The notes below the pieces were generated by a model. The model was not told the origin of the DNA and did not search any database. It saw only the letters and a program-made list of their open reading frames with translations. Positions 1 to 62,051 of a stretch of DNA of 64,000 bases are shown here, piece by piece. Location of the stretch: NCBI RefSeq assembly GCF_010500245.1, contig NZ_JAAGOX010000006.1:1-64000 (forward strand). The letters run 5' to 3'. Numbering within the stretch: the stretch's first letter is position 1; each line of letters starts with the position of its first letter. Both the position numbers and the translations under genes were made by a program. The DNA comes from Ruegeria sp. PrR005. Lineage in GTDB: Bacteria > Pseudomonadota > Alphaproteobacteria > Rhodobacterales > Rhodobacteraceae.

Positions 1-160
1 TGCATTGCCGGACTGAAGATGGGAAAGCGTTCCGCACGCTTAACATCATCGACGAATACAGCCGGGAATGCTTGGCCGGCCCCGGAAACCATCGTCCAGA
101 TGGACCAAAGGCCGGTCATGCACTAACAATCAAATTGGACCACTCAGGTGGGGCTGATCA
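1..160 (+). mobile_element. IS3-family element remnant, internally deleted
   Basis: Frame 3 from position 3 encodes part of an IS3-family OrfB rve domain, with a typical IIDEYSRECLA stretch ending near position 77. The reading then jumps directly to the extreme C-terminus of the same kind of protein (residues like ETIVQMDQRPVMH followed by TAA at 124-126). About 34 bases later comes a sequence that looks like the terminal inverted repeat, ending in GGGGCTGATCA. Most of the catalytic core is therefore deleted and the 5' part lies outside the window. It cannot transpose by itself. Confidence 0.75.
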
Positions 161-470
161 GCGGTTCCAACTGCCGGTCATCGCACCGGCCTGCACCTTG
201 CCGGGACAGAAGGTAATTTCGATCCGTCCAATCCCTGCATCGGGGCAAAGCCTGGCGATCTGAAGCGGATGGATCTGGCTGGTGCGCATAGCAAGAATTC
301 CTCTCAAAGCAGCTTGGCCGCGAAAGGCGGGGTGTCCCTCTCCCCCAACTCGCAGCAGCAAAGCAATGCTCCGAAATAAAACGTATGCAAGGGGTTAGTG
401 CTGTTTTGCAAAACTCCAAGGCAACCATAGTCGGTCCCTCGATTTCGAATCCCTTGCTGCCCGACCTCGG
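161..470. other. Non-coding stretch, no gene recognised
   Basis: Between the IS3 end and the stop of the receiver/EamA gene I find no ORF with recognisable protein character. The short ORFs on either strand look like chance frames. It could hold the terminator of the minus-strand phosphorelay operon, but I see no convincing hairpin followed by a T-run. Confidence 0.4.
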
Positions 471-1994
471 CTACCGCTCGTCCCGCATCCTTAGTGTGAT
501 CCGGAAATCATCCCCCGCGCGCTTTGGTTCGACCAGCCAGAAGCCCACAATCACTAGCAAGAGCGAGGCGATAGCCAGCGGTGACAAACTTTCGCCCAGC
601 AGCAGCATCCCCCAGGCGATCCCGGCCAGCGTTTGTGAATAGGCCATCTGGCTGGCGAAGACTGGCCCTGCTGTCGCCACGAGGTCAAGCGCCAGAACCA
701 ACGCGACTGCTGTCGACACGCCGAGCGTGAACGTGATCACCTCGCGTTGGCCGAAAGAGGCTGAGGGCAGAAACAATGCGTCTTGGGCCATGGCAAACGG
801 CAGCAGGAATAGCGCTGAAAGCGCCATCATCACCCCGACCGTCGCGCCAGCGTCTATGTGCCTCGGGCGCCAGGACATCAGAAGGGTGTGCAGCGAAAGA
901 AGAAAGGGAAGGGCCAACGCCGAGATCAGCCAGAGAAGCTCGCCTTCACCACCAGCGCCCTTCACCAGAAGAACGATGGCTATCCCGGCGAAGCCGAGCC
1001 CGAGACCGGAGAAACGCCGAAGGCTCGGACGTTCGAGCGCAAGAAGCGCGGCCAGAAGGAAAACCATGAACCCACGCGAACTTCCGATAAGCGCAATCAT
1101 CGTGGCCTCGACATGGGCCGAGATTACCACGGTTAGCAACTGGTAGAGTGAGCCGAGCAGCACTGCCCAAAGCGCGAGAAACCCGAAGTCCCGCAATTTC
1201 AAGCGCGGCAGCCCCCGGCGAACGACCGACACCGAAAGACAAAACACCGCGGCGACGACTGCCGACCAGAACACCAGTCCCAGCGGCGGCACATCACTGG
1301 CAGAGGCGAGACGGCCAAGAGCAGGTGCGATCCCAAAGATGCTGCCCGCCGCGAGAACCAGAAGAGTGCCGCGAAGGGTGCGCACCGTCAGGTCAGCGCG
1401 GCGTTCGCGGTCGTAGATTTCCTCGGCCAGGCTGCGAAAGACTTTGGCAAGCGCGCCCAAGGGATCGTTCCTCGCGGCCACGTCTACAATGTCGAGTTCC
1501 GCCGGACGAAAAGCTCCACCTTCGATGACCTGGGCGGCCCGGGTCAGCGTGTCAATATCGCGGAAATAGGCGAGTTCTCTATCGCGGAACCGTTTGCGGG
1601 CCAGAGAGGCGTTGATCCGCGCCTTAAGAATGGCCGGCTCGAAGTTTTTGGGCAGGAAGTCCTCCGCCCCAAGCTCGATGGCGCGGACGACGCTGTCGAT
1701 CTCTTCGTCTAGCGACGAGACCACGATCACCGGGATGTCGCGCAACGCGGCATCGGACTTCATGGCGTTCAACACTTGGTAGCCGTCCACCTCGGGCATG
1801 ACGATGTCCAAAAGCATGATGTCGAAGGGCGTCTCATGCAAGACGGCAAGCGCCTCGGCACCACCAGTGACACGTTTGGAATGGTGGCCGAGCGAGTTCA
1901 CAGCCTTTGCAAGCTTGCGACCACTGACCCGACTGTCGTCGACGATCAGGACCGATGCCTCCGCGATGGTCTCTGGGTCGTTCATGTTGATCAT
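471..1994 (-). CDS. Receiver domain fused to an EamA/DMT-type membrane transporter
   Basis: Residues 13-125 form a CheY-like receiver with the acidic pair (VLIVDD), phospho-acceptor Asp63 in IMLLDIVMPEVDG and conserved Lys116 in LPK. Residues 125-203 are a charged, probably helical linker. From about residue 206 to the end the protein is strongly hydrophobic with about ten predicted membrane helices arranged as two repeats, as in EamA/drug-metabolite transporters, ending in FWLVEPKRAG. Receivers normally end in DNA-binding or enzymatic outputs, so a fused transporter is unusual. The ATG overlaps the TGA of the Hpt gene (ATGA), implying translational coupling and one phosphorelay. Inference: phosphorylation gates or localises export. 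The transported substrate is unknown. Confidence 0.85.
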   Translation of the reverse strand: MINMNDPETIAEASVLIVDDSRVSGRKLAKAVNSLGHHSKRVTGGAEALAVLHETPFDIMLLDIVMPEVDGYQVLNAMKSDAALRDIPVIVVSSLDEEIDSVVRAIELGAEDFLPKNFEPAILKARINASLARKRFRDRELAYFRDIDTLTRAAQVIEGGAFRPAELDIVDVAARNDPLGALAKVFRSLAEEIYDRERRADLTVRTLRGTLLVLAAGSIFGIAPALGRLASASDVPPLGLVFWSAVVAAVFCLSVSVVRRGLPRLKLRDFGFLALWAVLLGSLYQLLTVVISAHVEATMIALIGSSRGFMVFLLAALLALERPSLRRFSGLGLGFAGIAIVLLVKGAGGEGELLWLISALALPFLLSLHTLLMSWRPRHIDAGATVGVMMALSALFLLPFAMAQDALFLPSASFGQREVITFTLGVSTAVALVLALDLVATAGPVFASQMAYSQTLAGIAWGMLLLGESLSPLAIASLLLVIVGFWLVEPKRAGDDFRITLRMRDER

Positions 1995-2371
1995 GTTCCG
2001 ATCCGTGGTCCTTGAAGATCGCCAAGGTTCAGGCCCGACAGTGCGCGCCGGGCGGCGTCCTCTTCGTCGCTGATACGCTGGGCAAGTCCGACGAATTCTT
2101 CAGAACCGCCTTCTCGGCAAGTCTTTTCCAGCTTGGCGCAAAGATCCGCCAGCCGCACTGCGCCGAAATCCCGAGCGTTTGATTTGAGCGTATGGGCGGC
2201 TATTTTGAGCGCGGTCTGGTCTCCTTTACCCGCAGCGTCAAGAATACGCTGGGCGAGATCGGGAGCGTCCTCAAGATAGTCGTCCCGGAGCTCCTCAAGC
2301 TCGTCGATATCCCCTCCCACAATGTCCAGCAGCCGTTTCAGCGCGGCCATGTCGATGTCACCACTCTCCAT
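1991..2371 (-). CDS. Free-standing Hpt phosphotransfer protein
   Basis: This 126-residue, mostly helical acidic protein carries the Hpt signature AAHTLKSNARDFG with the phosphorylatable His at residue 60. Hpt domains shuttle phosphate between a hybrid kinase receiver and a final response regulator. It starts 12 bp after the hybrid kinase, which lacks its own Hpt domain, and its stop overlaps the start of the receiver/transporter gene. That order fits a His-Asp-His-Asp relay encoded in one operon. It acts in the cytoplasm. Confidence 0.9.
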   Translation of the reverse strand: MESGDIDMAALKRLLDIVGGDIDELEELRDDYLEDAPDLAQRILDAAGKGDQTALKIAAHTLKSNARDFGAVRLADLCAKLEKTCREGGSEEFVGLAQRISDEEDAARRALSGLNLGDLQGPRIGT

Positions 2372-2383
2372 CGGCTCTCCAGT

Positions 2384-5300
2384 TTAGTTTCCACTTCCTT
2401 CGCCTTCCTCTCGCTGCGCCTGCCGGAAAGCTGCGCCGCGCTTCAGGCTAGCAACCATTGCCGCTTCGTCCACCGGTTTGCTCAGGTAGTCGTCCATTCC
2501 CGAGTTTAGATAGGCGTCCCGGGCTGAGGCCTGCGCGTTCGCTGTCAGCGCCACAACATAGGGCCGGTGCCGCCCCTCGAAGGCATGCCTGATTTTGGCT
2601 GCGGCTTCGACACCATCCATCTCAGGCATCTCTATGTCCATCAGGATGACATCGTAGCTCCCGCCGGTAGCTAGCCCGATCGCCTCGGCACCGCCGCTGG
2701 CGAGATCGGAGTTGTAACCGTTCTTTGCGAGCATCTTCTGCCCGACCTTTCGGTTGATCCGGTTGTCGTCGACGAGAAGGATCGACAGTGCCTCAGCTCG
2801 AACCTCTGGCACCTCGGTCTCTGGCGCCACGCAACGTTCTTGCCCGCCGATCGCAGAGGCTAGGGCTTGCAGGAGCTGTGCAGACTTCGCTGGCTTCGCT
2901 ATCACAGATGCAAAGCCGACATTTCGGATTTCGGCCCAGAAATCCGGCTCGGCGGGCGTAAGCGAGGTGAAAAGAATCATCGGCGGCGCGGCCTCTCCAA
3001 GCGTGGTGTTGACCCGCTGAGCAAGTTCGAGCCCGCTCATTTCGGGCATCTTGTAATCAATGATCACCACGTCGGGAGTGGGTTCGCCTCTGAGCCGCTC
3101 AAGCGCCTCGTTTGGGGCGCTCAAGACCTCGGGCAACATGCCCCAAGCGCGGAGTCTTTCGTCGATGATCCGCCGGTTGGTCTGGTTGTCGTCCACCACA
3201 AGCGCGGTCTTGCCTCGCAACACCTCGATCCGTGCCCGGCGGTTGTTGCGGTCTGGCAAGGCGCATCCCCGCAGTCGCAAAGCGAAGGAAAAGGTGGAGC
3301 CGCACCCCAGTTCGCTCTCGACCACGATCTCGCCGCCCATCTTTTTGACCAGGCGCTGACTGATGGCCAGACCCAGCCCAGTACCGCCGTAGCGCCGTGT
3401 CGTAGTGGCGTCGACCTGGCTGAATGAGCGAAAGAGCCGGTCCATACGATCTGCAGGAATGCCGATGCCCGTATCACGAACCGAGAAGGCGACATGCGCA
3501 GTATCGGCGGCTTCATGCACGTGCCCAACAAGGCTGACCGTCAACAGGACTTCGCCCTGTTCAGTGAACTTCACGGCGTTGTTCAGCAGGTTTAGCAACA
3601 CCTGCTTGAGCCGGGTCGGGTCGCCTACCAGACCACGTGGGACCTCGGGCGCGATCCGGCAGGCCAGTTCAACGCCCTTTTCGTCGGCCTTAGGCATCAC
3701 CAGTTCCACTGCCGATTCGACAGTCTCGGCGAGGTCGATCTCAAGCTCTTCGAGTTCAAGCGCTCCTGCTTCGACTTTTGAGAAGTCAAGGATGTCGTTG
3801 ATGATTGTCAAAAGCGTGTCGGCCGCGTCGCCGATTGTAGCGGCAAAGTCTCGCTGTTCGGCATCGAGCTTCGTCGAGGCCAGCAGGTTACTCATCCCCA
3901 TGATACCGTTCAACGGCGTTCGGATCTCGTGGCTCATCGTAGCCAGAAACGAGCTTTTCGCCTCGTTGGCGGCTTCTGCCTGCTCCTTGGCTTGTGTTAT
4001 TTCGGCCTCGCGCTGCTTGAGCTCGCTAATGTCCGAATATACCACTACCGAGCCGCCGTCGGTCGTTCGCCGTTTGTCGATCTGGACCCAGCGTCCGTCC
4101 TGCAACTGTCGGACGTTCGATGCACGCGGCGTTCGACCGTCAAGGTCAGCCTCGAGCCGCAGGCCTGAGCCTTTCGGCGCGTCTTGGGCAATTTCTTCTG
4201 CCGAACGCCCAGGTTGGACGAAATCTCCGGTTGGGTCGTTCAGGAAATCCCGGTATCGGGTATTGTATAGAACAAGCCGGTTGTCCGCGTCGTAAAAGGC
4301 AAAACCCTCCGAGATGCTCTCAATGGCGTCGATCAATCGCTGCCGGGTCTCGGCGATCTCACGCAGGTTGCTCTGCTCCATCTCAACGGCTGTGTCCTGG
4401 AAGACGGTAAGCGCTCGCATCAGGCGCGAAACCTCGTCGCGTCCAGTGGGTTTTGGCAGGGAAACGTGCAAGTCGCCCTCGGCAAGGGACAAGGCGGCAT
4501 TGCTGAACGCGCTGAGCCGCGAGCCAAGGCTGCGGTTCACATAAGCGATAGCGCCGATAATTACTGCGAGAGAGGCCAGAAGCACGGTTGCTAGGGTCAG
4601 CCGGCTTGCTTCGAGCGACGAAAGCACTGCAGCGGCCGAGGCGTCGGTGGCCTGACGGGTTTCGGAAACAATTTTCGCGGCAATATCGCTCATCCTCTCG
4701 GTGAGTTCGTTGTTTCTGAGAAGTAGCCCCTCGGTCTGCTTCAGCGCGCCAAGCTCACTCGCACGCAGATCGAAGACTGTCTCGTTTCCGCTTCCGAAGC
4801 CGATCAAGCGCTCCGCTAGCTCGGCGGTATCCGAGATGTCTGTGCGAGAGTCGAGGCGGGCGATTAGTTCCGAGGTTTCGGCCGCAACCGCCCCAAGGTC
4901 CGCCTGCAACCCATTCAGCGCGGTCCGGTCTTCCGAGAATGGAGCGAGGGAGAGGATGCCGACGGTCCGGTTGCCAAGCGTTTCCAGCGCGAGAAGTGTA
5001 CCGTAGCCGACGACGCTGGCGTCATTGATGGCGTCGAGGCTCGCTGCGACTTCGCTGTTGAGGTTGGCGCTCACGGTGACGGTCTGACCCCGGATGAGGA
5101 TGATCGAACGGCGCAGTACGATATCAAGCTGTAGGAAGGTCTGGCGAAGGTCGCGTTCGATTTCTTCCGAATCGAAGGTCGTTGCGGGGTCGGCCAGCGC
5201 CGCTCTGCGGAGTTCGAAGATGCTGTCTGCGCCGGCACCGTAGGCGATGATGCGGTCAATGATCTCCGACAACTCGTTGACGTCGACCACCTGCCGGACC

Positions 5301-6091
5301 GGACCGTTTCCTTTCAGTTCATCGACGTTGCGTGCAGCGATCGAACTCGAAGTGACAAAGTCGCTCCAAGTATCACGGACGGCTTCGTCCGTTGGTGCGG
5401 TCAGCGCACCGATCATTGACTGCTCGATAGTCCCAAGCTGAACTTGCATAGTCAAAAGCGGGATCAACCCCCGTACCCCGAGGTCGTTCAGAAAGGTGAC
5501 CGAAGCCTCGGTGCTGGCGTTCACGCGGTCGATTTCGGCACTGAGGACGTCTAGCTGCTCGGCGATTAGGGGCTCGATGGAGTGGTTGAACGCTGCGTGG
5601 GTCCGGGCAAGGCTCCGGATCCGGCTGCCAAGTTTCCCGCCTAGCTCTATCCTTTGTGCGACGATGGTGGCTAGTGTCTCTGATAGTTCGCCGACGTCGC
5701 GGATCGAGGCCTCAAGGCTAAGGACCGTCTCAGCTCCGCTACCGTGTGTTTCCAACTCGTTGATGACTGATCGGATGCGATCGAGATGCCCCTCGAGAGT
5801 CGACATCCGGGCTTCAAGCTGATCGGCGTTTTCGGAACTGGCGACCGAGGCGGCGGCGTTGCGGATGTTCGTTGTATCCTCAGCAACCCGGTGCGCGATG
5901 ACGAGGGCCGGAATGCTCTCGTTTGATATAGAGGTGAGTTGCTCTTGGATCACGAGGTTGGTGCGGTGCGCGATCAGCGCGCTGATAGCTGCCGACAGGA
6001 AGATGATTATGACGACCAGAAGGAGCTTTCCTCGGATCGTGTAGGGAAGCAAGGCCGAAAGGCCGGACCTTCCTTCGTCTGCCGTTGCCAT
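2384..6091 (-). CDS. TorS-like hybrid sensor histidine kinase with two receivers
   Basis: The 1235-residue protein has a membrane helix near residues 20-44, a very long helical periplasmic region (about 45-495), a second helix (about 497-517) and HAMP. A PAS domain (about 585-690), HisKA with SHEIRTPLNG (His near 721) and an HATPase with N, G1 (DTGIGIP) and G2 (GGTGLGLA) boxes follow. Two receivers, starting near 965 (LVVDDNQTN) and 1105 (LLVDDNRIN), each keep the acceptor Asp. The large helical sensor resembles TorS, whose partner TorT is a periplasmic binding protein. The gene directly upstream is also a periplasmic binding protein, so I infer it presents the ligand. No internal Hpt domain is present; the next gene supplies it. 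Confidence 0.9.
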   Translation of the reverse strand: MATADEGRSGLSALLPYTIRGKLLLVVIIIFLSAAISALIAHRTNLVIQEQLTSISNESIPALVIAHRVAEDTTNIRNAAASVASSENADQLEARMSTLEGHLDRIRSVINELETHGSGAETVLSLEASIRDVGELSETLATIVAQRIELGGKLGSRIRSLARTHAAFNHSIEPLIAEQLDVLSAEIDRVNASTEASVTFLNDLGVRGLIPLLTMQVQLGTIEQSMIGALTAPTDEAVRDTWSDFVTSSSIAARNVDELKGNGPVRQVVDVNELSEIIDRIIAYGAGADSIFELRRAALADPATTFDSEEIERDLRQTFLQLDIVLRRSIILIRGQTVTVSANLNSEVAASLDAINDASVVGYGTLLALETLGNRTVGILSLAPFSEDRTALNGLQADLGAVAAETSELIARLDSRTDISDTAELAERLIGFGSGNETVFDLRASELGALKQTEGLLLRNNELTERMSDIAAKIVSETRQATDASAAAVLSSLEASRLTLATVLLASLAVIIGAIAYVNRSLGSRLSAFSNAALSLAEGDLHVSLPKPTGRDEVSRLMRALTVFQDTAVEMEQSNLREIAETRQRLIDAIESISEGFAFYDADNRLVLYNTRYRDFLNDPTGDFVQPGRSAEEIAQDAPKGSGLRLEADLDGRTPRASNVRQLQDGRWVQIDKRRTTDGGSVVVYSDISELKQREAEITQAKEQAEAANEAKSSFLATMSHEIRTPLNGIMGMSNLLASTKLDAEQRDFAATIGDAADTLLTIINDILDFSKVEAGALELEELEIDLAETVESAVELVMPKADEKGVELACRIAPEVPRGLVGDPTRLKQVLLNLLNNAVKFTEQGEVLLTVSLVGHVHEAADTAHVAFSVRDTGIGIPADRMDRLFRSFSQVDATTTRRYGGTGLGLAISQRLVKKMGGEIVVESELGCGSTFSFALRLRGCALPDRNNRRARIEVLRGKTALVVDDNQTNRRIIDERLRAWGMLPEVLSAPNEALERLRGEPTPDVVIIDYKMPEMSGLELAQRVNTTLGEAAPPMILFTSLTPAEPDFWAEIRNVGFASVIAKPAKSAQLLQALASAIGGQERCVAPETEVPEVRAEALSILLVDDNRINRKVGQKMLAKNGYNSDLASGGAEAIGLATGGSYDVILMDIEMPEMDGVEAAAKIRHAFEGRHRPYVVALTANAQASARDAYLNSGMDDYLSKPVDEAAMVASLKRGAAFRQAQREEGEGSGN

Positions 6092-6149
6092 TGCGCGCCT
6101 TTCCTATCCCTTCTCGCCAGTGCGTTTACCCGGCCAGGTCACCTACGCA

Positions 6150-7298
6150 TCAGAGCTTCAGCTCGAAATCCTTGATATCTTCGGGATTGATGTAAGCCAC
6201 TGCCGGGTTAAGCATCACGTCGAGGTGCAGCTTGAATACCCGTGCAGAGTCGGTGTCCCGGTTCGCCCATTCGAACCAGAGGGGCAGGGCAATCTTGCGG
6301 AACCGCCCCACGTCGTCCTCGGACAGCCGTGTGACCTCGACGCCGGCCTCAGCGAACTTCGTCCAGGCAGCAACATTGGCCTCTTGGTGGGCTGTGAAGT
6401 GTTTGATCGAGAAGGCGCGTACAAGCTCCGTCAGCAGTTCCTGTGTCGCTGCGGGGAAACTATTCCAGACGTTTTGGTTGAAGACGACGATTGTCAGGTC
6501 TACCGGCTGATGCAGGCAGGGCGTCGAGGTCGGACCCATGACGATGTATTTGCTGACTTCGGCGAAACCGAGGTCGTAATTCATCGCTGGTCCGGTGAAG
6601 TCTGCCGCGTCGATCGCGCCGGAGGCCAGCGCCGGTTGCACCTCGGACCCCGCGAGCGCGATGGTTCGCGCCCCAATGGCCTCGAAGCAGTCAGCTACGA
6701 TCCCTCCGGGCATCCGAAGGTTCAACCCCCGGAAATCGTCAAGCGAGCGGATCGGCTTGTTGGAGTGAATGAGGTTCATGTCGTGGTGTACGTGGCCGAC
6801 ATAGTGCAAGCCATGGCGGGCGTATAGTTCGCGGGCCAGCTCGGTGCCGCCGTAGCTATCGAACAACATGTCCCATTGGTGCGGATGGGGCAGCCCCATC
6901 GGAAAGGACGTCAGTAGAGCTCCCGCGGGCATCGCTCCGGTGATTGCTGCATAATGTGGGACCCAGTGCATGCCATCGAGTACACCCGCTGAAGTAGCAG
7001 TCATCATGTCGAAGATTTCAGAAACCGTTCCGCCCGCGAAAGGGACGAACTCGATTTCGCCTGCGGTCAGTTCGACGATGCTCTTGCACCAGGTTTCAAA
7101 TGTCCGGTAGCCGATCGTGTTCTCTGTCCAGAGTGATTGGATCTTCAGCTTCCTTCCAACAGAAACCTGAGCGTTGCCCACAAACGGAGCCGCCACGGCC
7201 CCTGCGCTCGCGGCAGCTGCCACGAAAAGCGCGTTGCGTCTTGTCGTGTTCGGCGTGACGACGGCCGACTCCCGCCGGGATTGTCCCCGGTGTGTCAT
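6150..7298 (-). CDS. TRAP-type (DctP-like) periplasmic binding protein, Tat-exported, probable co-sensor
   Basis: The N-terminus has a twin-arginine signal (TTRRNALFVAAAAS) followed by a mature DctP-like protein of about 340 residues, with family stretches such as RSLDDFRGLNLRMPGG and LASGAIDAADFTGP. A strong Shine-Dalgarno (GGGAGGTGAG) supports this ATG. DctP proteins bind organic acids in the periplasm for TRAP permeases, but no DctQ or DctM gene is nearby; the next gene, 58 bp on, is a hybrid kinase. I infer it acts as the ligand-binding partner of that kinase. It could still serve a permease encoded elsewhere. Confidence 0.85.
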   Translation of the reverse strand: MTHRGQSRRESAVVTPNTTRRNALFVAAAASAGAVAAPFVGNAQVSVGRKLKIQSLWTENTIGYRTFETWCKSIVELTAGEIEFVPFAGGTVSEIFDMMTATSAGVLDGMHWVPHYAAITGAMPAGALLTSFPMGLPHPHQWDMLFDSYGGTELARELYARHGLHYVGHVHHDMNLIHSNKPIRSLDDFRGLNLRMPGGIVADCFEAIGARTIALAGSEVQPALASGAIDAADFTGPAMNYDLGFAEVSKYIVMGPTSTPCLHQPVDLTIVVFNQNVWNSFPAATQELLTELVRAFSIKHFTAHQEANVAAWTKFAEAGVEVTRLSEDDVGRFRKIALPLWFEWANRDTDSARVFKLHLDVMLNPAVAYINPEDIKDFELKL

Positions 7299-7787: not shown

Positions 7788-8978
7788 TCACAGTCGAAGT
7801 ATCACACTGTTAGGCGCGGCGGCTGCCGGTTCAAGGTCAGCCTCGTCTGGCGCCAGCAGGCGCGCCCTGCCAAATCTTGGTTTCCAGTGGCACAGATCAG
7901 GCGAGATCGCGCGCCAGACCGACACACCGACGAAGTTGTGCGTCATGTTGTGGAATGCCAGTCGGACACCGTGCTGCTGTAGTGCGGGCAGCAACTCGTC
8001 CGGCATGACCGCCGGACGCAGTGGCGCTGCGGTTGCCAGCGCACCGAGCGGCGACGTTTTCGGCGACACCTCGGCCAACCAGCGCCGCAATCCGGGACGC
8101 ATCTGTCCGGTCTGCAATCCGGCCTCGACCAGCAGTGCCATTTGGCCCATCTCGCTGGTGGCCTTCTGCGCAGCGACCGGATGCGATAGCCCGGCGGCGA
8201 ACCCCATAGACACGCTACCGGTTTCCGGATCGTCGGTGACAGCGGCCACCACCGGTACTCCAAGGTCGGTGGTGATATCGAACAACCGAAGGTTTCGGCC
8301 TCGATCGCCAAACCAGCCGAGAAGTTCGTCGAATTCTGGGCCCAGGTTTGCGGTGTCGAGCACCGCGCGCGCGCGGTTACCATACCACCAGCGACCGGTG
8401 GCGTCGCGCTCGATCAGTTCCAGAACTGCCGCCTGCCGCGCTGCGGCGTCGGTTTCACCGGCGGCGCATCCCGATGTGTCAGCGTAGGAAGACGCGCTAG
8501 TGCCCAGGAACACGGCATCGGTCGGCACCCGGACCGGATCGCCACCGAACGCATCCTCGGCCATGATCCAACCTGTGGCTTGCGCCCCTGCCGGGGGGAT
8601 CCAGTCTGTTCCGTCCAGCCGTTCGTTCCAGCTGCTGCGGGCATCCGACTGTTCGGGCGAGAACCCCAGCAACTCCGTCAACCGCCAGCACTTACCCTCG
8701 CCCAGCGGCGCATCGGGCGGCATGACGGCCTCGTCGCCCCATGTTATCGTGCTGGCCAGTTCAGCGGCTTCGCCGAGTGCGCTGGTCTCTGCCGCGTCGA
8801 AGGACAGGCCCCGTCCGCCCGCCACCCGACCGTTTTCAAGGCGCAGACCGGGCGGCAACGCCCCCCAAGCCGCCGCCGCAGCCTGGGTCGGCAGAGCCAG
8901 ACAACAGCGAACCGGCCAATCCGGCGGCGCAATATCAACAACGTCGAAATAGTCACGCAACTTGTCTAAGGTTGACAC
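7788..8978 (-). CDS. YcaO-domain protein
   Basis: The central part carries the YcaO ATP-binding signature: SGCAAGETDAAARQAAVLEL followed by IERDA. The C-terminal stretch VSVWRAISPDLCHWKPRFGRARL matches the usual end of the fold. YcaO enzymes use ATP to activate peptide amides (azoline, thioamide or amidine formation) or assist RimO-type modification. The proline-rich C-terminus typical of azoline cyclodehydratases is missing, and no E1-like or TfuA partner is adjacent. I chose the GTG at 8978 because AAGAGGT lies 6 bases upstream; a TTG at 9020 would overlap the divergent gene. Its substrate is unknown; the heme peroxidase operon and cyclase regulator are neighbours. Confidence 0.85.
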   Translation of the reverse strand: MSTLDKLRDYFDVVDIAPPDWPVRCCLALPTQAAAAAWGALPPGLRLENGRVAGGRGLSFDAAETSALGEAAELASTITWGDEAVMPPDAPLGEGKCWRLTELLGFSPEQSDARSSWNERLDGTDWIPPAGAQATGWIMAEDAFGGDPVRVPTDAVFLGTSASSYADTSGCAAGETDAAARQAAVLELIERDATGRWWYGNRARAVLDTANLGPEFDELLGWFGDRGRNLRLFDITTDLGVPVVAAVTDDPETGSVSMGFAAGLSHPVAAQKATSEMGQMALLVEAGLQTGQMRPGLRRWLAEVSPKTSPLGALATAAPLRPAVMPDELLPALQQHGVRLAFHNMTHNFVGVSVWRAISPDLCHWKPRFGRARLLAPDEADLEPAAAAPNSVILRL

Positions 8979-9007
8979 AGTGGACCTCTTTCTCAGGTGG
9001 CGACAGA

Positions 9008-11530
9008 ATGGCGTCGACAAGTCCGGAAGCGCAACCCTTGGTCTCGGGTGCAGAGGAGAGCGGCGGTGTCCGCACCATCCTCTTTGTCGACATGGTGGGT
9101 TACAGTCGCCGGGTGGAAGTGGACGAACTGAGCGCCCTCGATTTCATGTCGGGCTGTTTCGACACGCTGCGGGTTCTTGCCCACCGCCATGGCGGCGCCG
9201 TCGTGAAGACTATGGGAGACGGCGCACTCCTTGTCTTCCCGGATTCGGTTTCCGCGGTGCGGCTGGGTATCGAATTCCACCGTATCGTCCAGAAAATACA
9301 GACAGGGGTGCGCGATCCGAACCTGTTCCGGATCGGGATCCATGCCGGTCCCATCATCGAAAGGAACGGCGATGTGCTGGGCAACGCTGTGAACGTGGCG
9401 GCCCGACTGCAAGAACAGGCGCAGCCAGGCACCTGCCTGGTATCCGAAGTGATCCGCGACGGCCTGAGCGCCGAGCACGGCATACGGTTCGAGGCCGCCG
9501 GCACCCAGCGGCTGAAGAACCTGAGCCAGTGGATCGAGGCGTTCCGTGTCATCGACGCGCCCTCCTCTTCGACGGGCCCGCCAGAGTCCGAGAACGCAGT
9601 TATCGCGGTGCTTGGGCAGACCGGGCTCATTGGCGCAGACGGCAGGCGCAGGATGCCGGGCTCTCGGCATGCCCGGTCCCTGCTTGGCTATCTCGCCTTG
9701 TGTCCGGGGCATTGCGAAGCGCCCGACAGGCTTGCCGCGCTGATGTGGCCCGAGGCACGGAACGGAACGGTACTGGGCCCGCTTGACGACACCGTGGACG
9801 AGTTGAACCACCTGCTCCCCGAGAGGATGCGCCGGTTGCTGCTCAGAGACGAGCGCTTTGTCATGCTCGACGCAATGGCGTTCCAGACTGACCTGGACAG
9901 TTTCGAACACGCCCTGCGCCGAGGCAGCGTTCCCGAAACGCTGAGCAGTGACGGGCGCTGGCCGGACCGGATTCTCATCGATGCCGATGGGCTGAGCCCG
10001 GAATTCGACGGCTGGCTTCGCATCCTGCGCGCCTCGTGGAAGCGGCGGTTGATGCAGGGGCTTGAACGAGTGCTGGAACAGACGGCCGGTAGTGCCGATT
10101 CCCATCGGGCCGCTGCCGAGGCGATACTGCGGCAAGAACCGGGTAACGAGGTCGCCTCGTTGGCCTTGATCCGGCATTTCGTGGTGCGGGGTAGCATGGC
10201 ACCGGCTCTCGAAGAGTTCACGCGATTACAGGACTACCTCACGCGGACGCATGGTGCCCAGTCCGGGCCCGAAATCCTGCAAACCGTGCGCAGGGCACTT
10301 GACGGCAAAAGCCGCAAGACGCCGCGGGCAGATGCCCTGGAGGCCGCGCCCAGACCGCGGCGGATGCTGCGCCTTCTGGTCGACCGCTTTACCGCGCCCG
10401 GCGCCGACGAGCACCTGGCCCGGACTTTCCGCGCCGATCTGATGGCGAATCTTGCGCGGTTCCGCGAATGGTCGGTAATCGACGGCGACCGCAATGCCGG
10501 TTCCGACGAGCGCGCCGATTACGGGGTGGCCGGCGAACTGCACGACGATCCGGTTCGCGCGATTACCATCCGGCTGACGGAAAAGCCCACCCATCGGATG
10601 ATCTGGAGCGAAACATACGATGTTGAAACCGGCGGCTGGCACGCGGCGCAGCTCAGTATCGTGCGTCAGGTCGCCGCCGCGATCGAGCGCTACGTCTCGG
10701 CTGACAGGCTGGCCGCCACGTTGAGCATGCCGGGCGCGCGCGCCACCAGTCATGACACCTGGCTGCGCGGCGACCGAGCCATGATGCGTTGGACGCCAGA
10801 AGGCGCTGAAGAAGCGCGTGCGATCTTCTCCAGTCTTTTGGAGGAGGATCCGGACTATGCACCAGCGATGACCAGCCTTGCCAGCATGACGAACATCAGC
10901 CATGTCGTCTGGCCCGGACTGACCCGCAATGTGGCGGACACACAGCGGGCCGATGCCCTGGCCGCGCGGGCGGCCGAGATCGATCCCATGGATTCGCGCA
11001 ACCAACGGGCGGTGGCGTGGTCGGCGGCACTCAACGGCTCCTTTGCCCGTGCGTCGATGCATCTTGACCTCGCTTTGAAACTCAACCCGGTAAGCCCGAC
11101 AACGCTTGCCTCATGCGCCATGGGTTTCGCCTGGTTCGGAGAGCGCGAAAAGGCAGACGCCACCGTCACGCGCCTCTTCGCGGTGTCCGAGGTGTTTCCT
11201 GAATGGATCTGGGGCTATCTGGCCTCGACCTTGTTCCTGCTCGACCGGTTCGACAAGGCCGTTGAGGCGGCGGAAATCGCGGGCGACAGCATCGTCGACA
11301 TCCAGGGCTGGCTTGCCGCGGCGCTCCAAAGTCAAGGACATGGCAAGCGGGCGAGAGCCGCCGCCGAGCGCTTCGTGAGCCGTGTGTCCGACGTCTGGGC
11401 GGGCAGCGAGCCCGCTACACCGCACAGCGTGCGCGACTGGTTCGTGACCGCCTTCCCGATCCGCAGGGAGGAAGACCGCCTGAAACTCGCGGCCGCCCTC
11501 GATGCTGCGATGGGTCTTTCCGGTCAGTGA
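9008..11530 (+). CDS. Class III adenylate cyclase fused to BTAD-like, FlgO-like and TPR regions
   Basis: Residues about 22-180 form a class III nucleotidyl cyclase domain with metal aspartates in FVDMVGYS and GDG, the adenine-type Lys in VVKTMGDG and the GNAVNVAARL motif, so ATP cyclisation is plausible. Next come a winged-helix/BTAD-like stretch (LLGYLALCPGH onward), a FlgO/TolB-like region (about 455-555) and C-terminal TPR-like helices. No membrane segment is seen, so it is probably cytosolic. ATG 9008 has an upstream AGGTGG; earlier in-frame starts would lie inside YcaO. Its 3' end overlaps the convergent unknown gene by 7 bp. A second, differently built cyclase regulator also sits beside peroxidase genes at 40.5-43.7 kb. 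Confidence 0.85.
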   Translation: MASTSPEAQPLVSGAEESGGVRTILFVDMVGYSRRVEVDELSALDFMSGCFDTLRVLAHRHGGAVVKTMGDGALLVFPDSVSAVRLGIEFHRIVQKIQTGVRDPNLFRIGIHAGPIIERNGDVLGNAVNVAARLQEQAQPGTCLVSEVIRDGLSAEHGIRFEAAGTQRLKNLSQWIEAFRVIDAPSSSTGPPESENAVIAVLGQTGLIGADGRRRMPGSRHARSLLGYLALCPGHCEAPDRLAALMWPEARNGTVLGPLDDTVDELNHLLPERMRRLLLRDERFVMLDAMAFQTDLDSFEHALRRGSVPETLSSDGRWPDRILIDADGLSPEFDGWLRILRASWKRRLMQGLERVLEQTAGSADSHRAAAEAILRQEPGNEVASLALIRHFVVRGSMAPALEEFTRLQDYLTRTHGAQSGPEILQTVRRALDGKSRKTPRADALEAAPRPRRMLRLLVDRFTAPGADEHLARTFRADLMANLARFREWSVIDGDRNAGSDERADYGVAGELHDDPVRAITIRLTEKPTHRMIWSETYDVETGGWHAAQLSIVRQVAAAIERYVSADRLAATLSMPGARATSHDTWLRGDRAMMRWTPEGAEEARAIFSSLLEEDPDYAPAMTSLASMTNISHVVWPGLTRNVADTQRADALAARAAEIDPMDSRNQRAVAWSAALNGSFARASMHLDLALKLNPVSPTTLASCAMGFAWFGEREKADATVTRLFAVSEVFPEWIWGYLASTLFLLDRFDKAVEAAEIAGDSIVDIQGWLAAALQSQGHGKRARAAAERFVSRVSDVWAGSEPATPHSVRDWFVTAFPIRREEDRLKLAAALDAAMGLSGQ

Positions 11531-60791: not shown

Positions 60792-62051
60792 ATGTATGCT
60801 GTACTCCTTCTCGTGATGGTGCTGACGCTGCTGGCGTTCAGACAGAACATCATCGTCATTCTTCTTGCTTCTGCGGCCTATGTACATCTGGTTTGGGGCG
60901 ACGGGCATCTGGAGTATCTAGCCGAGGATATCTGGATAAGCCTCGACAATGCGTTGCTTCTGGCCATCCCGATGTTCCTGCTGGCCGGTTCGATCATGAC
61001 CCGAGGCTCGATCGCGCGCCGCCTGATCGACCTTGCGGTCAGCGTCACCCGACCCATTCCGGGCGGTCTTGCAGTCGCGACGATCCTGAGTTGCGCCATC
61101 TTTGCGGCCATTTCCGGATCGTCTCCGGTCACGCTGCTGGCCGTCGGCACAATTCTGTATCCGGCTCTTTTGCAAAACGGCTACTCAAAGCGCTTTGCAC
61201 TCGGAGCCCTGACCTCGGGTGGGACACTGGGCATCATCATCCCGCCGTCCATCCCGCTTATCCTCTATGGGATCGTGAACGAAAAGAACATCGCCGACCT
61301 TTTCCTTGCGGGCATCATTCCGGGCCTGATGATCGCCGCGGTTCTGGCCGGGTACTCCTACTGGGTCAATCGGAAGATGCCGTCCCAGCCGTTCAACCTG
61401 GCGGAGTTCACCACCGCGTTGAAACGGGGCGGTTGGTCGGCGTTACTGCCGTTGATCCTGCTGGGCGGAATTTACTCCGGCTACTTTTCCGCGACCGAGG
61501 CCGCCGCAGTTGCGCTGGTCTACGCGATCTTTGTCGAGATATTCATTCACCGCGAATTGAAGCCGATAGATTTCTATCACACCTGTGTTGAAACGGCGAA
61601 ACTGTTGGGAATGCTCTTTCCGATCGTTGCCGTCGCATTGAGCCTCAAGACCATTCTCACGATCGAAGAGGTGCCCGACCAGTTGGCCATGTGGATCACT
61701 TCGGTCACCAACAACAAGATCGCCTTCCTTCTGGCCGTGAACCTGCTACTGCTTGTCGTGGGATGCCTTTTCGATGTGATTTCGGCCATCCTGATCCTCG
61801 GCCCGCTGCTGATGGTGCCCGCGATGGCCTATGGCATCGATCCGATCCACTTCGGCGTGATCATGGTGATCAACCTGGAAATCGGTTTTCTGACCCCGCC
61901 GATGGGCCTGAACCTGATCGTCGCGATGACGGCGTTTCGAGAGAATTTCCTTGAAATCTGCATGGCCGTCCTGCCGTTTATCGCGCTTATCATGGCGGTT
62001 CTATTGGTCGTCACCTTCGTGCCTCAAACCGCGCTCTTCTTTGTCCGATGA
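60792..62051 (+). CDS. dctM: TRAP transporter large permease subunit (DctM)
   Basis: The 419-residue protein has about twelve hydrophobic segments with family motifs AIPMFLLAGSIMTRG, AAISGSSPVTLLAVG, GTLGIIIPPSIPLILYG and NLEIGFLTPPMGLNLIV. Length is normal for a separate DctM. Last of the three TRAP genes. Confidence 0.9.
   Translation: MYAVLLLVMVLTLLAFRQNIIVILLASAAYVHLVWGDGHLEYLAEDIWISLDNALLLAIPMFLLAGSIMTRGSIARRLIDLAVSVTRPIPGGLAVATILSCAIFAAISGSSPVTLLAVGTILYPALLQNGYSKRFALGALTSGGTLGIIIPPSIPLILYGIVNEKNIADLFLAGIIPGLMIAAVLAGYSYWVNRKMPSQPFNLAEFTTALKRGGWSALLPLILLGGIYSGYFSATEAAAVALVYAIFVEIFIHRELKPIDFYHTCVETAKLLGMLFPIVAVALSLKTILTIEEVPDQLAMWITSVTNNKIAFLLAVNLLLLVVGCLFDVISAILILGPLLMVPAMAYGIDPIHFGVIMVINLEIGFLTPPMGLNLIVAMTAFRENFLEICMAVLPFIALIMAVLLVVTFVPQTALFFVR

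Follow-up and report, generated by a model that had tools for sequence, protein, structure and literature searches.

We analysed the first 64,000 nucleotides of contig NZ_JAAGOX010000006.1 from Ruegeria sp. PrR005 (hereafter, the window), in which four genes encode a binding protein and the parts of a phosphorelay, the last of them a response-regulator receiver domain fused to a membrane protein of the EamA family. All four are open reading frames (ORFs) on the minus strand, separated in order of transcription by a 58 bp gap, a 12 bp gap and a 4-bp overlap, which agrees with the arrangement reported in the original prediction for this locus. The window starts at the very beginning of its contig (the genome totals 5.07 Mb), and the fusion gene lies 470 bp from the contig start. 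The features of the cassette are as follows.

6150–7298, minus strand: DctP-family (TRAP) periplasmic binding protein of 382 residues, an orphan of the calcium-lactate (TTHA0766) type and proposed ligand sensor (Pfam DctP, 135 bits)
2384–6091, minus strand: membrane hybrid histidine kinase of 1235 residues, with a TorS-type helical periplasmic domain (about residues 42–497), HAMP, PAS_7, HisKA, HATPase_c and two receivers, no Hpt (Pfam)
1991–2371, minus strand: free-standing Hpt phosphotransfer protein of 126 residues, with His60 in the motif AAHTLK (Pfam Hpt, 54 bits)
471–1994, minus strand: receiver–HAMP-like–EamA fusion of 507 residues, proposed phospho-gated transporter (Pfam; AlphaFold model; homologues)
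1602–1958, minus strand: receiver domain of the fusion, residues 13–131 (Pfam 15–127), acceptor Asp63 (Pfam, conserved pocket)
1395–1577, minus strand: HAMP-like linker of the fusion, residues 140–200, its second helix modelled as continuing into the first transmembrane helix, TM1 (Pfam HAMP matches, AlphaFold helices)
510–1379, minus strand: EamA/DMT transporter domain of the fusion, residues 206–495, with two EamA repeats (Pfam EamA in two stretches, fold matches)

The Pfam assignments bear out a hybrid kinase with a TorS-type sensor, two receivers and no Hpt of its own, accompanied by a separate Hpt protein, as had been read from the locus. The chain of phospho-acceptors, His-Asp-His-Asp, is complete: His721 of the kinase, Asp1012 and Asp1152 of its receivers, His60 of the Hpt protein and Asp63 of the fusion. 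The Hpt histidine is present in all 18 Hpts read, namely 16 listed proteins (14 by motif, those of loci L031 and L023 individually), one beside the Gemmobacter kinase fusion described below, and that of the window. The kinase matched the Pfam TorS_sensor family with 29.4 bits (cut-off 27), and its periplasmic domain matched the TorS profile 3o1h with an E-value of 1.4e-8 over about 100 of 536 positions. A model of this domain was all-helical (predicted local distance difference test (pLDDT) 84.3, predicted template-modelling score (pTM) 0.53) and matched the TorS fold with a TMt of 0.80 and a root-mean-square deviation of 9.3, the top match by E-value being the chemoreceptor McpZ. Against the full-length TorS model TIGR02956 the kinase scored 490.9 bits, below the cut-off of 676.5, and we therefore describe it as TorS-like rather than as TorS. 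Among 295 family genomes two have this type of sensor, as do two of five genus genomes (the window's own genome being in both counts), and all three genomes concerned carry the receiver-EamA fusion.

The original prediction had compared the locus with the TorT/TorS pair, which belongs to the trimethylamine N-oxide phosphorelay TorT-TorS-TorR. In that system TorT belongs to a different family of binding proteins, TorS has one receiver and a built-in Hpt, and TorR is a DNA-binding protein. The comparison holds insofar as both systems combine a periplasmic binding protein with a hybrid kinase whose helical sensor domain is of TorS type. It does not extend to the binding protein itself, which is of the calcium-lactate type, nor to the predicted remainder of the pathway, with its two receivers, a separate Hpt gene 12 bp downstream of the kinase in place of one in the same chain, and a transporter-family output.

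The receiver of the fusion appears intact throughout its family. The pocket residues Asp19, Asp20, Asp63, Ser93 and Lys116 were the same in all 23 full-length copies of the alignment (a count that leaves out a truncated copy in genome G272 and a broken third copy in Brevirhabdus), and Asp63 and Lys116 are the acceptor and lysine named in the original prediction. An AlphaFold2 model of the fusion, drawing on 18 homologues, had a mean pLDDT of 85.5 and a pTM of 0.64. Foldseek matched the receiver part of this model to other receivers, with a TMt of up to 0.96 among the matches listed, and the membrane part to the choline importer LicB (TMt 0.79), a triose-phosphate translocator (0.73) and SLC35B1 (0.69), so that the EamA part, as modelled, has the DMT fold. 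The EamA-type character assigned to it earlier is thus upheld by two Pfam stretches and by a many-helix model. Seven residues of this part (Glu321, Pro363, Gly443, Phe446, Gln449, Tyr452 and Glu468) were invariant in 18 of 18 aligned proteins. Lysine and arginine averaged 3.5, 2.8 and 1.7 in loops 2, 4 and 6 and 4.2 at the C-terminus, compared with 0.2, 0.3, 0.7, 1.1 and 0.1 in loops 1, 3, 5, 7 and 9; loop 8 also held just 0.1. By the positive-inside rule this distribution places the receiver on the predicted cytoplasmic side. The two-repeat fold and an N-terminus predicted to lie inside are shared with EamA/DMT transporters such as LicB (by fold), YddG and RhtA, to which the window protein adds an N-terminal receiver and a HAMP-like linker; we know of no characterised member of the family with both additions.

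Between receiver and membrane, residues 140–200 follow the HAMP-like pattern LT.AA...E.G.F.P..L....A...DPLG.LA.VF. The Pfam HAMP family matched three of five linkers in a first scan, with one of them exceeding the cut-off; in a second scan, at E<=0.05, it matched 10 of 16, the best with 28.1 bits (cut-off 25); other families matched one linker each. The 16 comprise the 18 aligned fusions minus near-copies (R. marina, A. lutimaris and Rhizobiales bacterium Y) plus that of Mesorhizobium. In the fusion model the last helix of the receiver spans residues 120–158 and is followed by a connector and by a helix, 178–220, that is continuous with TM1. The linker, so modelled, resembles a HAMP domain: it is HAMP-like, not a proven HAMP.

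We found the fusion in 21 genomes or plasmid lineages, at full length in 20. For this count three plasmid records of Mesorhizobium were merged into a single lineage, the truncated copy in G272 was included, and the members of close pairs were tallied separately (the two Aliiruegeria; Aestuariivirga and Rhizobiales bacterium Y), so that independent origins are fewer than 21. At E<=1e-40, two of the five genus genomes and six of the 295 family genomes had relatives, and at E<=1e-70 so did 12 of 390 order genomes, the window's own genome and G272 being included in these figures. The class sample yielded the own genome alone (1 of 385), the phylum sample 3 of 398 at E<=1e-60 (own genome included), and the order of Aestuariivirga 1 of 199, which is the Aestuariivirga genome itself; an EamA-only match in G1326 was not counted as a fusion. 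A scan of named genomes returned 27 loci, 12 with full-length fusions and the remainder matching the receiver or EamA alone or partly, and added Roseovarius, Aliiruegeria, Limibaculum, Aestuariivirga, Gemmobacter and others, including a gammaproteobacterial metagenome-assembled genome (MAG). Three Mesorhizobium plasmids from a plasmid collection carry the fusion at 44.7% identity, annotated merely as 'response regulator'. The fusion is rare and patchy, and most frequent in the window's own family.

Wherever it occurs, the fusion tends to keep its partners. The original prediction expected receiver-EamA proteins to travel with the kinase and Hpt, and a hybrid kinase and Hpt share the cassette in 19 of the 21 lineages, among them a Roseovarius draft with its kinase divided between two frames and G334, whose kinase includes the Hpt as a domain. 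The sensors are more varied. DctP with a window-type kinase is found in seven lineages (the window, R. marina, Roseovarius autotrophicus, HLUCCO18, the two Aliiruegeria and Limibaculum), and a CHASE5-like kinase with a small secreted protein in five (Brevirhabdus, G283, G272, bin.49 and G561); by eye the secreted protein resembles family-3 binding proteins, and those of Brevirhabdus, G272 and bin.49 had no Pfam match at E<=0.01. Family-3 binding proteins accompany the cassette in four lineages, G253 (by Pfam), G334 (72% identical to that of G253), and G502 and Gemmobacter (about 24% only). Four more have GAF kinases and no binding protein, assigned by Pfam in Aestuariivirga and Mesorhizobium, by similarity in G582 and by matching layout in Rhizobiales bacterium Y. 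The sensors thus vary among relatives, and the Hpt and receiver-EamA output are retained.

Two natural fusions join these components. The second copy of Gemmobacter straminiformis (locus L088, 5491–9591, minus strand) is one open frame of 1,367 residues running receiver-linker-EamA-PAS-PAS-HisKA-HATPase-receiver-receiver. An Hpt gene follows directly after it. In G334, kinase and Hpt form a single protein. As Rosetta-stone fusions, these proteins tie receiver-EamA, kinase and Hpt together as one functional unit.

Further variants were seen at individual loci. A Brevirhabdus MAG holds three receiver-EamA copies (L020, 6154–14384), the third of which follows the Hpt and is broken by a frame change. 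A gammaproteobacterial locus (L036, 9854–10657, plus strand; G1306:C182) encodes a receiver-linker-one-helix protein ending at a stop, a shortened or decayed family member. Two cassettes also contain other receiver proteins, a receiver-class III nucleotidyl cyclase (L066, 11865–12923, plus strand) and a receiver-GNAT acetyltransferase (L034, 15432–16385, plus strand).

We built a tree of 22 fused EamA domains and nine unfused ones taken from similarity scans. The tree required two changes between fused and unfused labels, compared with a mean of 8.0 for shuffled labels, and none of 500 shuffles was as low. One unfused copy, from Alloyangia, nests inside the fused cluster, beside the first copy of Brevirhabdus; its locus yielded no kinase, and its position makes loss of the receiver likely. 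The sensor class mostly follows the fusion clade (by eye). Outside the DctP clade, in which the first Brevirhabdus copy is counted, identity to the window protein was 43–62% for the receiver and 29–45% for EamA.

The binding protein offers a lead to the signal. Its N-terminus reads, by eye, TRRNALF, which we take to be a twin-arginine (Tat) motif. It matched the Thermus calcium-lactate protein TTHA0766 (PDB: 2ZZV) with 345 bits, at 46.6% identity over the printed alignment, and two TTHA0766 biosensor chains with 316 and 305 bits; the next protein of another kind scored 97 bits. In the excerpts of PMC8648760 that describe such a lactate biosensor, Tyr80Phe shifts the apparent Kd from about 4.1 µM to 3.9 mM and Asp444Asn abolishes binding. 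By our own transfer of numbering along the alignment, which allows for the matured chromophore, Tyr80 and Asp444 of eLACCO correspond to Tyr116 and Asp233 of the window protein, and both residues are invariant in seven of seven aligned DctP orthologues. With the lactate-contacting Tyr and the essential Asp retained, our best guess for the predicted ligand is a lactate-like 2-hydroxy or 2-oxo acid. On a Mesorhizobium loti plasmid, pML2037, a D-2-hydroxyacid dehydrogenase gene (L091, 13664–14689, plus strand) lies directly downstream of kinase, Hpt and receiver-EamA on what are rhizobial plasmids, a faint second hint at hydroxy acids.

The window protein differs from TTHA0766 in being encoded beside a kinase, with no DctM membrane subunit nearby on the contig: the nearest lies at 60810, the far side of the cassette falling beyond the contig end. 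To that extent the original claim of a binding protein without a permease stands. We considered a TRAP uptake system missing its permease and set this aside, given that none of the 16 other DctP matches in the genome exceeds 32% identity to the window protein over the matched part, and that in Ruegeria marina, where both flanks are visible, no TRAP permease occurred among the five flanking genes scanned (RTX repeats, aminotransferase, aldehyde dehydrogenase, acetate kinase and PTA; other flanking ORFs unscanned).

These data allow us to propose a mechanism for the cassette. The ligand of periplasmic DctP would be a lactate-like 2-hydroxy or 2-oxo acid, probably bound together with Ca2+, and the loaded protein would dock on the TorS-type domain of the kinase. 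His721 would then pass its phosphate to one of the kinase receivers (Asp1152 or Asp1012), from which it would reach His60 of the Hpt and finally Asp63 of the fusion. Phosphorylation of Asp63 may alter the receiver, and the HAMP-like linker, working in reverse order from cytoplasmic switch to membrane, would shift TM1 and so open, close or bias the DMT-fold transporter. A phosphorelay ending in a transporter-family protein is strongly supported in anatomy and conservation. The original prediction held that the signal directly controls a transporter, possibly exporting the metabolite that is sensed; of this, the complete set of relay parts and a likely terminal receiver covalently within a transporter-family protein stand, and we infer gating, the order of phosphotransfer, the ligand, the direction of transport (export included) and any link or identity between ligand and substrate.

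On balance we think it probable that this multistep phosphorelay gates a DMT-fold transporter as its output, instead of a gene regulator. Most known two-component systems act through DNA binding, enzymes or protein docking. To a broader proposal we would give an even chance: that receiver-HAMP-EamA proteins are an undescribed class of response regulators gating a secondary transporter, and travel together with binding protein, hybrid kinase and Hpt as a portable cassette in which the sensed compound is swapped through binding protein and kinase, the transporter substrate changes alongside, flux is controlled by phosphate independently of transcription, and the signal in the window is a lactate-like acid. 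If true, a receiver inside a secondary transporter would provide a direct, fast and post-translational route from external signal to membrane flux, by which an outside signal could alter membrane traffic with no prior change in gene expression, and a HAMP-like module would be used backwards, relaying a cytoplasmic switch into a membrane domain. The modular sensors could then be used to seek matched ligand and substrate pairs across genomes.

Several observations weigh against this interpretation or parts of it. The linker of the window protein scores 19.3 bits against HAMP, below the 25-bit cut-off, and six of the 16 linkers lack a match at E<=0.05; a hidden Markov model built from seven neighbouring-kinase HAMPs matched the linkers weakly (the window at E 3.7 and at another place, the best at 0.018), and hhalign gave HAMP against linker a probability of 6.5%. 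The cassette of G272 is interrupted, with the kinase in two frames and about 1.5 kb of other sequence in place of the kinase end, the Hpt and the receiver's first half, and the full fusion of the gammaproteobacterial (Granulosicoccaceae) MAG has neither kinase nor Hpt in the DNA seen around it; a second member in that MAG, cut by the contig end, adjoins a hybrid kinase. The first Brevirhabdus copy falls in the DctP-type fusion clade, yet its locus holds a CHASE5-like kinase. Divergent second copies from Brevirhabdus (Brevir_B) and G283 (G283_B) fall on the unfused side of the tree, at a fork that lacks support. Given these two copies, the sampling of unfused proteins and a fork next to the root with almost no support, a single origin of the fusion is consistent with the tree, not proven by it.

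The membrane part itself could be an anchor or a sensor rather than a transporter. In the former case EamA would no longer transport, and would hold the receiver at the membrane as a phosphate sink or as a docking protein that tunes some partner, be it the kinase or another protein. In favour are the third copy of Brevirhabdus, which is broken, and the shortened gammaproteobacterial copy; the modelled DMT fold with two EamA repeats and the seven invariant residues speak against it, and we regard an anchor as unlikely. The greater divergence of EamA than of the receiver outside the DctP clade would be expected if control were conserved while the substrate changed, although a relaxed anchor would fit too. 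In the latter case EamA would report its transported substrate through HAMP and receiver to the kinase, in the manner of Amt-kinase and SLC5-kinase fusions, and the Gemmobacter single chain does put receiver-HAMP-EamA upstream of a PAS-kinase. Ammonium sensing by a kinase-fused Amt domain is described in the excerpted text of PMC8534201 and PMC5764959. We nonetheless find a sensory EamA distinctly improbable, given that the window kinase already owns a TorS-type sensor and a binding-protein gene, that the domain attached to EamA is a phospho-acceptor receiver and the neighbouring gene encodes an Hpt, that the linker sits on the receiver side, between receiver and membrane, and that GAF-type kinases go with the same output in four lineages.

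The relay might also be branched, its main target an unlinked DNA-binding regulator and receiver-EamA a side branch, an arrangement compatible with a gated transporter. The receiver-cyclase of the G561 locus and the receiver-GNAT of the Gemmobacter locus weigh against a single output, and the relay may therefore have others; G334 has a free receiver, and the fusion query gave 26 matches in the window's own genome, mostly over the receiver part. The window cassette, however, holds no other response regulator, and receiver-EamA is a recurring neighbour while each other output was met once, so that we hold the branched form to be rather unlikely, if plausible. An artefact of sequencing or annotation that merged two separate genes into the fusion is next to inconceivable: 22 of 22 fusion frames, and that of Mesorhizobium, are uninterrupted across about 20 separate assemblies, which rules out a sequencing error.

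Among known systems, the transporter-kinase fusions Ks-Amt5 and the SLC5-STAC kinases CbrA/CrbS likewise link a transporter domain covalently to two-component parts. In these the transporter is the input of a kinase, whereas in the window it carries a receiver, at the output end. In BctC-BctDE a binding protein of secondary transport (TTT) signals to a two-component system (excerpts of PMC5812351), as proposed here for DctP. BctDE, unlike the window system as proposed, activates the expression of the transporter genes. Searches of the open-licence literature found no description of a receiver-EamA fusion; the portion of PMC12487129 at hand lists receiver and EamA domains separately, not as a fusion, and that of PMC1183210 does not treat one. 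On co-sensors, searches of open-licence papers gave either nothing or general precedents.

Beyond the cassette, the window contains, at the contig edge and about 200 bp from the fusion gene, an ORF (3–263, plus strand) that looks by eye like a fragment of an insertion-sequence integrase. On the other side lies a YcaO-family gene (7788–9020, minus strand), whose best NCBIfam match is SagD-like and below the cut-off. On the same side is a long ORF (8741–11530, plus strand) of uncertain true start, with a weak NCBIfam match to LipJ, far below the cut-off, and a class III cyclase-like part near its N-terminus.

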